A stretch of 39,120 nucleotides of DNA from an uncultured Azospirillum sp. (GTDB lineage: Bacteria; Pseudomonadota; Alphaproteobacteria; RF32; CAG-239). Location of the stretch: positions 1 to 39,120 of the forward strand of contig CAMOQT010000004.1 of NCBI GenBank assembly GCA_946623145.1, written 5' to 3'. The notes below the pieces were generated by a model that was not told the DNA's origin, ran no database searches, and saw only the letters and a list, made by a program, of their open reading frames with translations. Made by a program: the position numbers and the translations under genes. Positions 25,123-27,922 of this stretch are shown in pieces. Each line of letters begins with the position of its first letter. The stretch's first letter is position 1.

Positions 25123-25268
25123 GAGGTTAAAAAGAAAATCTGTGAGAGATAAAATTTATTATTGTGTTTTAAATCAAATTGTATATGCTTGTAGGCAATT
25201 GGATACTTTTAAATGTACCGACGCCAAACCAAAAGATGAAAAAATGTTTAATTGTGTTTGGATGTTGG

Positions 25269-25540
25269 TATCGCCATCTCTTCATAGCGATAAGGTGTGC
25301 TGTATTCAAGAGGATATGGAAATTTACTGAACGGTTTTATTCCCCGTACAAAAATAATAAACACGAATGAACGTACGGGCTTGATTATTAGAGGAGTTGC
25401 TCCTCATCAATAAAAGTACTTGGGCTGATTTATGATAAAAAAATAAAAGCAGCTTGATAATTTTAAAGAATATAACTCCGTTCGGTGCGGTATAGTTTAA
25501 CCAAAGTTCATCTTTGGTATTATTAAGTTTGGAGTTATTT
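25269..25540 (+). promoter_or_regulatory. Candidate structured 5' leader of rne
   Basis: Inverted repeats in the non-coding gap upstream of rne: TATCGC/GCGATA (25269-25274/25287-25292), CCCGTAC/GTACGGG (25343-25349/25373-25379), GAGGAG-TTG-CTCCTC (25391-25405), CCAAAG-TTCAT-CTTTGG (25501-25517), and ATAACTCC/GGAGTTAT (25472-25479/25531-25538), the last overlapping the rne SD. Confidence 0.55.
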
Positions 25541-27922
25541 ATGACCAAAAGAATGTTAATTGATGACACTCAGCCTGAAGAGACCCGTGTCGTTATTGTT
25601 AATGGTAATAAAGTTGAAGATGTAGAATTTGAATCCAGTTTCAGAAAACAAATTAAAGGAAATATCTATTTAGCTAAAGTTATGAGAATCGAACCGTCTT
25701 TACAAGCTGCTTTTGTAGATTACGGTGGTAATAAGCATGGTTTTCTTGCTTTTGGAGAAATTCATCCCGACTATTATCATGTTTCAGACGAAACCATGGC
25801 TGAAATCGAAAAAGAAGTTGATGAGGCTATTGAAGCTAAAAAACAATATCTTAAAGATAAAGAATTGGAAAGAGAACGGCATCGTGAAGAAAAAGCTAAA
25901 GAACGTGCCAGAATAGAAGAAGAAAAAAGATTAGCTATAGAACAAGCCGCGGCTTCTCTCGATCAAGCTGCAGAAATTGAGCAACCTAAAGAATCTGAAC
26001 AACCGTCTTCTGAATCGTCTGTATCTGATGAAAATTCAGTTACAACGGAAGATCTTGCTCTTGCTGAAGATGATGAAAAACATAAACGCAAAAAAAGAAT
26101 TTTGAAAAAAAGAATTAAGAAACAACAAGAACAAAAACAAGCTGAAGTTACCGTTGTCGATACTGAAGAGAAAACTAAAGAAAATATAACCGTTATGGCT
26201 GCTGAAACAGCTGAAGCGGAAGCTATTCGTGAAGATGTTTCAATGAATGATGCTGAAGATGAAAATGACGGTATTGATGATGACGATGATGATAGTGAGT
26301 ATGATTTTGAGTTACAACGCAAATTGATGAAATTGCGTAAACTTTTCCATAGAAGTACTATCCAAGATGTTATTAAAGAAGGACAAATACTTCTTGTTCA
26401 AGTTGTTAAAGAAGAGCGTGGCAATAAAGGGGCAGCCCTTACAACTTATTTGTCGCTTGCTGGCCGTTATTGCGTTTTGATGCCAAATCGTATTAAAAGT
26501 GGTGGTGTATCTCGTAAAATCACCAACATTGCAGATCGTAAACGCTTAAAAAATATTATCCATGAACTGCCGATCAGTAGCGACATGTCTATGATTGTCC
26601 GTACAGCTGGTGAAGATAAAACAAAAGCTGATATTATCAGAGATTATAATTACCTTATCCGCAGTTGGAATCAAATTCGTTTGTCAGCTCTTAAAAACAA
26701 AGCACCTTATATGATTTACGAAGAAGGTAATTTGATTAAACGTGCTTTACGAGATATGTTCACAAAGGATATTTCGGAAATTATTGTTGATGGTGATGAT
26801 GCTTATCGTGAAGCTCGTGAATTTACTAAAATTTTATCTCCTTATAATTTAAAAAAGCTAAAAGCAAACAAAAAAGGAGATTTGCCTATTTTCCAACGTT
26901 TCCAAGTAGAAACACAACTCGACAAATTGCATGACACCAACGTTCAACTTGAATCCGGCGGTTATTTGGTTATTAATCCGACAGAAGCCCTGGTTTCAAT
27001 TGATGTTAACTCCGGTCGTGCTACTAAAGAAAAAGATTTAGAAGAAACTGCTCTTAAAACAAATTTGGAAGCGGCAGATGAAATTGCAAAACAGCTGAGA
27101 ATGAGAAATCTTGCCGGTTTAGTTGTTGTTGATTTTATCGATATGGATGATCCTAAAAACAATATTGCCGTTGAAAAACGCATGAAGGAAGCCATGAAAT
27201 CAGATCGTGCACGCGTTCAAATTGCTAAAATGAGTATTTTTGGCTTATTGGAAATTTCTCGTCAAAGAATGCACTCTTCTTTCTTTGAAAGTAATTACCA
27301 AGTTTGTCCTTATTGCCAAGGAAAAGGATTGGTTAGAACTATGGAATCCAGTGCCGTAATGGTTTTACGTGCAATTGAGGAGGAAGGTTTGCGTTTCCGG
27401 TCATCTCAAATCTCCGTCTTTGTTCCAAGCGATATTGCCATTTTCTTACTTAATCATAAACGGCAAAAGTTAAGCGAAATGGAAATGCAGTATAATCTAC
27501 AAATCATCATCAGCGCTGATGATTCCATTAAAAATGTTTCAGATTATCGTATTGAAAGAATTAAAGCTCTCAAACAACCATCTGAACAGCCCAAACCAGC
27601 TATTCAGGAAATAGAAGCTGATGAACCTGGTATTCCGGCAAATGATGTTTCTGATGAGGCAGAGGAATCTTTTACTGAAGATAGCGAGAAATCTAATCGT
27701 TTTAATAAACGATATAAAGATCGTCGTAATCATCGTAATTATAATCGCGATTATAAAAAGCGGAATCGCAGTAAAACAGAAGAAGAACAACCTTCAACTG
27801 CAAATAATGAAGCTGTTATCTTGTATAACAGTCATGAAGATATTACATCATCTCCTGTTCAAGAACAACAGGCTGAACCTAAAGGAAAAACAACTTGGTG
27901 GAAAAAATTAATCAAAAGCTAA
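25541..27922 (+). CDS. rne: Ribonuclease E/G family endoribonuclease
   Basis: Start placed at ATG 25541 behind GGAGTT (ORF track start 25514 lies in the leader). MTKRMLIDDTQPEETRVVIVNGNKVEDVEFE, AFVDYGGNKHGFLAF, LVINPTEALVSIDVNSGRAT, VVVDFIDMDDPKNN, zinc-link CPYCQGKG, basic/acidic C-terminal tail. Confidence 0.94.
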   Translation: MTKRMLIDDTQPEETRVVIVNGNKVEDVEFESSFRKQIKGNIYLAKVMRIEPSLQAAFVDYGGNKHGFLAFGEIHPDYYHVSDETMAEIEKEVDEAIEAKKQYLKDKELERERHREEKAKERARIEEEKRLAIEQAAASLDQAAEIEQPKESEQPSSESSVSDENSVTTEDLALAEDDEKHKRKKRILKKRIKKQQEQKQAEVTVVDTEEKTKENITVMAAETAEAEAIREDVSMNDAEDENDGIDDDDDDSEYDFELQRKLMKLRKLFHRSTIQDVIKEGQILLVQVVKEERGNKGAALTTYLSLAGRYCVLMPNRIKSGGVSRKITNIADRKRLKNIIHELPISSDMSMIVRTAGEDKTKADIIRDYNYLIRSWNQIRLSALKNKAPYMIYEEGNLIKRALRDMFTKDISEIIVDGDDAYREAREFTKILSPYNLKKLKANKKGDLPIFQRFQVETQLDKLHDTNVQLESGGYLVINPTEALVSIDVNSGRATKEKDLEETALKTNLEAADEIAKQLRMRNLAGLVVVDFIDMDDPKNNIAVEKRMKEAMKSDRARVQIAKMSIFGLLEISRQRMHSSFFESNYQVCPYCQGKGLVRTMESSAVMVLRAIEEEGLRFRSSQISVFVPSDIAIFLLNHKRQKLSEMEMQYNLQIIISADDSIKNVSDYRIERIKALKQPSEQPKPAIQEIEADEPGIPANDVSDEAEESFTEDSEKSNRFNKRYKDRRNHRNYNRDYKKRNRSKTEEEQPSTANNEAVILYNSHEDITSSPVQEQQAEPKGKTTWWKKLIKS

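Follow-up and report, generated by a model that had tools for sequence, protein, structure and literature searches.

A long rne leader with a conserved, probably switch-like Shine-Dalgarno arrangement in a family of uncultured alphaproteobacteria

In many bacteria, RNase E sets the pace at which RNA is turned over, and its control of its own synthesis has been well studied in Escherichia coli. The 361-nt 5' untranslated region (5' UTR) of E. coli rne mediates feedback by cleavage and decay of the mRNA (PMC10989929, PMC3997798). In Pseudomonadales, the rne-II motif (RF01756), a structured RNA of the rne 5' UTR, was found by comparative genomics (PMC2864571), and its processing has been reported in Pseudomonas aeruginosa (PMC8545117). 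Autoregulation of rne in Synechocystis involves cleavage of the 5' UTR, with a U-rich cleavage element and premature termination (PMC10989929).

The locus studied here lies in a 39,120-nt stretch of DNA, referred to below as the window, which is contig C4 of a draft genome of 1.23 Mb (G000). An open reading frame starting at ATG 25541 (25541-27922, + strand) encodes a 793-amino-acid endoribonuclease of the RNase E/G family. The product matches TIGR00757 in a profile search (E value of 3.7e-151, 503.8 bits), and the rne start MTKRMLIDDTQPEETRV is kept across relatives. A second, distant RNase E/G-like match in the same genome (contig C9, 19884-20903; 29% identity, open frame of about 399 amino acids) has counterparts in nearly all relatives and is probably a paralogue of the RNase G type. 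Neither the window nor the loci of 20 relatives matched any Rfam family, and searches of these sequences with rne5 (RF00040) and rne-II (RF01756) at gathering score gave no match. The segments of the rne leader that are discussed below are as follows.

25159-25187, + strand: predicted rne promoter, with -35 TTATTG at 25159-25164, a 17-nt spacer and -10 TATATG at 25182-25187.
25215-25271, + strand: helix HA, GUACCGA (25215-25221) with UUGGUAU (25265-25271), enclosing CCAAAC/GUUUGG, the 3' arm of which is at 25256-25261.
25273-25300, + strand: hairpin HC, GCC-AUCUCUUC-AUAGC-GAUAAGGUG-UGC, with a nearly invariant apex UC-AUNNC-GA.
25325-25334, + strand: segment a, putative anti-anti-Shine-Dalgarno segment UACUGAACGG, family motif TTTTgCcGGa.gg, just 5' of H1.
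25343-25379, + strand: hairpin H1, CCCGUAC (25343-25349) with GUACGGG (25373-25379), with an AAN-rich, G-poor loop.
25391-25405, + strand: hairpin P0, GAGGAG-UUG-CUCCUC, the hairpin itself being present and a role as partner of segment b unsupported in relatives.
25472-25487, + strand: segment b, comprising the anti-Shine-Dalgarno sequence AUAACUCC (25472-25479) and the overlapping CCGUUCGGUG (25478-25487), which pairs with the Shine-Dalgarno sequence or with a.
25501-25517, + strand: hairpin P2, CCAAAG-UUCAU-CUUUGG, between the anti-Shine-Dalgarno and Shine-Dalgarno sequences.
25531-25538, + strand: segment c, the Shine-Dalgarno region GGAGUUAU, which pairs with 25472-25479.

It had been proposed from the window alone that a single anti-Shine-Dalgarno (anti-SD) segment in a long, transcribed rne leader alternates between two exclusive partners, the Shine-Dalgarno (SD) sequence and hairpin P0. 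The sequences on which this original prediction was built are all where it placed them: ATAACTCC at 25472-25479, AACTCC at 25474-25479, GGAGTTAT at 25531-25538, GGAGTT at 25393-25398, GAGGAG-TTG-CTCCTC at 25391-25405, CCAAAG-TTCAT-CTTTGG at 25501-25517, and ATG at 25541. In this genome alone, the two pairings are not clearly above chance. The longest helix between the anti-SD and SD regions was equalled or bettered in 74 of 1,000 dinucleotide shuffles, and that between the P0 region and the anti-SD was equalled in 570 of 1,000. The window by itself is thus indecisive, and the case stands or falls on the relatives. We therefore examined the region upstream of rne in about 140 species belonging to the same uncultured gut/rumen alphaproteobacterial family. 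A match was obtained in 142 of the 152 family genomes searched, and rne start regions were taken from most of these 142. With a few outgroups added, this gave 141 distinct upstream sequences, representing 15 family genera and 3 outgroups. Own and swapped b:c partners were compared in 125 species, and the a:b, promoter and competition tests were carried out with 85.

Motif discovery, performed without pairing information on 85 relatives, recovered a promoter-like motif upstream of the leader with the consensus TTGTTG-(17)-TATATT (13.9 to 14.6 nats per sequence; shuffles, 1.8). The motif has a -35/-10-like form in 78 of the 85. The predicted transcription start of rne in the window is near 25194, which corresponds to a 5' UTR of approximately 347 nt up to the ATG; across the family, the predicted length has a median of 369 nt (interquartile range, 357 to 383). 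With the conserved promoter at 25159-25187, segments a, b and c as well as the hairpins would all lie inside the predicted 5' UTR. A transcription start downstream of 25480, the case in which the original prediction would not hold, is disfavored by this promoter. An early idea that the promoter is situated at 25432-25461, leaving 25391 untranscribed, was dropped given the conserved upstream promoter.

Because the hairpin sequences vary too much, RNAalifold applied to MAFFT alignments of the whole leader recovered almost nothing; the same was true of the HC alignment until its structure was supplied by hand. When wide regions were given to RNAduplex, helices that have nothing to do with each other were merged, and shuffling species by species had too little power if the search regions were wide. 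In a 47-sequence alignment (A1), 85.9% of cells in the HC stem are paired, compared with at most 57% in slid controls, and covariation is 0.216 versus 0.148 in shuffled alignments. HA is a pair called by RNAalifold on the alignment of genera g01, g10 and g11 and is also present in folds of G000; its covariation was judged by eye. A hairpin equivalent to H1, with stem sequences that are unrelated across genera, was found in 43 of the 85 species (shuffles, 7.4). The AAN triplets in the H1 loop resemble an Hfq-type ARN site. A covariance model spanning HC to segment a (R1) gave strong hits in this family only; they lie at the rne leader, one in each genome, with the exception of G122, which has an equal hit on two contigs. 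The R1 matches include sequences outside its training set (G028, 8.5e-7; G131, 3.0e-5). In 385 genomes of the class, R1 gave no match outside the family at an E value of ≤0.01 except for a weak one in G306 (E value of 0.005). In G042, a member of another family (locus L224), TTGTTGTGAGTG and a CAACAATAAATAACTAAACAAT run located approximately 330 to 420 nt 5' of rne resemble the promoter and the AAN loop, and the R1 model has no match there.

With regard to the stem that would sequester the SD, the position of CTCC in relatives is sharply confined to -75 to -46 before the ATG. Among 125 species, b:c duplexes between own partners had a mean of -8.64 kcal/mol, compared with -7.45 kcal/mol (sd 0.18) when partners were swapped between species and -8.04 kcal/mol (sd 0.12) when they were swapped within genera. 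The signal was seen only in the interval from -78 to -42, and own and swapped partners did not differ in five other intervals of the leader. The anti-SD tracks the SD across genera, the pairs being CUCC/GGAG, ACCUC/GAGGU, AAACCC/GGGUUU and UAUUUUCC/GGAAAAUA. Taken alone, the flanks of CTCC/GGAG show weak covariation, with P = 0.03 over the whole set and no significance inside genera. These comparisons indicate that the b:c stem is maintained in evolution, and the anti-SD:SD pairing of the original prediction is borne out in this respect. Since segment a resembles an SD, some of the complementarity between b and c could have arisen as a side effect of a:b. A P2-equivalent hairpin of variable sequence is present by eye at the same place in most relatives. 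We also observed a second possible anti-SD, GAUAAUUUUAAA (25456-25467), which can form 12 bp (G-U included) with UUUGGAGUUAUU (25528-25539); this pairing is the one of lowest energy when folding is restricted to the final 85 nt of the leader plus 12 nt of coding sequence.

The second partner of b supported by the relatives is segment a. UACUGAACGG (25325-25334) can form 10 bp (G-U allowed) with CCGUUCGGUG (25478-25487), and the a motif was itself recovered by motif discovery without pairing information. At the inner six positions, a and b occur in the compensatory sets GCCGGA/UCCGGC, GCUGGA/UCCAGC, ACUGAA/UUCAGU, GUCGGA/UCCGAU and GCCGAG/UUCGGU, with ACUGAA/UUCGGU in the window. When these six positions were anchored independently of pairing, the observed pairing exceeded that in all 2,000 swaps. 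Against shuffles, a:b had a mean z of -2.04, with P ≤ 0.05 in 61% of 85 species. The own-species duplex value was -13.23, compared with -9.59 (sd 0.29) after swapping (z of -12.8; z of -8.9 within genera), and windows shifted by at least 30 nt showed a slight effect at most (z from -2.4 to +0.8). In genus g03, the topology is retained with different sequences, such as GGGUUUAGAUAA paired with UUAUCAAAACCC, and as a group its own pairing is no better than swaps. The scheme fits poorly in genera g04 and g06 and in parts of g09, g10, g14 and g15. The g04 rne leader (for example, in G009, G057 and G067; loci L045, L198 and L150) is without the CUCC/a pattern and instead has a conserved hairpin, UAUCG...CGAUAAUUAUUAG, directly 5' of an AGGA-type SD. 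This hairpin is a distinct element that occupies the same position.

Covariation is much stronger for a:b than for b:c, and the flanks of P1 covary weakly. This could mean that a:b is a static long-range helix that closes a leader domain without any switch and contributes to stability or provides a platform for RNase E or Hfq, the complementarity of b to the SD then being a by-product of an SD-like a. We consider this unlikely, as b:c covaries independently, both in 125 species and within genera and only in the -78 to -42 interval, and as the segments that extend P1, AUAA in G000 and its congener G001 and AA in g07, fall outside the inner a:b helix.

Of 85 species, 99% have at least 2 nucleotides that belong to both the a:b and the b:c pairing, and folds constrained to one or the other differ in energy by a mean of only -0.35 kcal/mol, with 53% of the 85 species favoring a:b. 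For the window, the minimum-energy form (-92.1 versus -87.6 kcal/mol) includes a:b, with a mean pair probability of 0.73. An in silico cut between a and b, which removed the 5' sequence up to the H1 region, raised SD:b pairing from 0.26 to 0.48, with an increase in 48 and a decrease in 5 of 85 species (Wilcoxon P = 6e-10); in the window's own species, the same cut did not raise b:c pairing. The arrangement found is hence that of an anti-SD/anti-anti-SD switch, with a maintained SD:anti-SD pairing, a maintained competing partner a, and exclusive pairings of comparable stability. A layout in which b would pair with either a or c is well supported by sequence comparison, and the retention of both pairings in evolution suggests a built-in on/off switch for rne. 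The layout of the original prediction, one anti-SD with two exclusive partners in a long transcribed leader, thus stood, and its second partner did not: segment a lies approximately 66 nt upstream of hairpin P0, beyond the coordinates that had been considered.

On balance, we favor the view that the rne leader is a structured 5' UTR of approximately 350 nt with a three-strand translational switch, the likeliest trigger of which is RNase E. In the ON state, b (25472-25487) would pair with a (25325-25334) and the SD would be free; in the OFF state, b would pair with c (25531-25538) and the SD would be hidden. Because c is the last of the three segments to be transcribed, a:b would form first during transcription and permit translation. 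If the RNA between a and b were then cut or remodelled, b would be freed for c and rne translation would fall. The likeliest agent would be RNase E, with cuts in unpaired, A-rich stretches of this intervening RNA, such as the loop of H1, which would result in negative feedback as in E. coli, exerted via access to the SD. RNase E feedback is our best guess for the trigger. We put forward more tentatively, and with less than even confidence, that these rne leaders form a class of their own, specific to the family and not described before, with cleavage between the anti-anti-SD and the anti-SD serving to sense the activity of RNase E. If so, RNase E would turn off its translation through a switch in RNA structure, and not by mRNA decay alone.

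The three-strand switch could also be left unchanged and be triggered by Hfq, with or without a small RNA, at the AAN-rich loop of H1. The distal face of Hfq binds ARN repeats, hairpins with an AAN loop are present in the 43 of 85 species mentioned above (7.4 in shuffles), and Hfq is encoded in 16 of 16 family genomes tested and 27 of 28 overall. AAN-rich loops are, however, also plausible substrates of RNase E, and the Hfq site is a prediction from sequence; we regard this trigger as distinctly unlikely. Transcription attenuation, in which read-through would depend on an intrinsic terminator located between segments a and b, is highly improbable. Hairpins with T-rich 3' tails do occur in 30 of the 85 species (shuffles, 5.0), but T-rich 5' flanks are equally common (28 of 85), and attenuation was rejected because an asymmetry between 3' and 5' T-tracts is absent in relatives; no terminator-like site was found on the + strand of the window leader. 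Finally, alternation of the anti-SD between the SD and hairpin P0, suggested by the identical GGAGTT at 25393-25398 in the window, is scarcely tenable and was rejected, as P0 shows no excess complementarity to b in the relatives (mean z of +0.20, significant in 1% of 85 species), 570 of 1,000 shuffles reach the same level in the window itself, and the pairing would require breaking a perfect 6-bp hairpin. The covariation that the original prediction called for was seen for anti-SD:SD pairing (125 species), and pairing of the anti-SD with the hairpin was not supported (85 species).

The three-strand switch provides a concrete model that can be tested on three short segments, in which mutation and compensation should shift expression predictably. 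A structured autoregulatory rne leader is a kind of element that is already known; the sequence family and the conserved layout are absent from Rfam, and in the open-access literature (subscription papers lay outside the search) we did not find this sequence family or an SD/anti-SD/anti-anti-SD layout for rne. Like rne5 (RF00040) of E. coli, the leader is a very long structured rne 5' UTR with a conserved stem-loop and a plausible role in RNase E feedback. In E. coli, RNase E binds the stem-loop and the mRNA is cleaved and decays, whereas here there is a conserved SD:anti-SD:anti-anti-SD arrangement. The leader resembles rne-II in being a structured RNA in the rne 5' UTR and differs from it in clade and in having no match to its model. 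In Synechocystis, a U-rich element and termination are involved, and the part of the report that covers rne describes no SD switch. As in anti-SD/anti-anti-SD switches, which include translational riboswitches and some regulated leaders, one segment has two exclusive partners, one of which is the SD; unlike translational riboswitches, the leader is without an identified ligand or aptamer, and it controls rne. A leader of length similar to that of E. coli, with a different layout that is backed by covariation, suggests that self-control of rne has evolved more than once.
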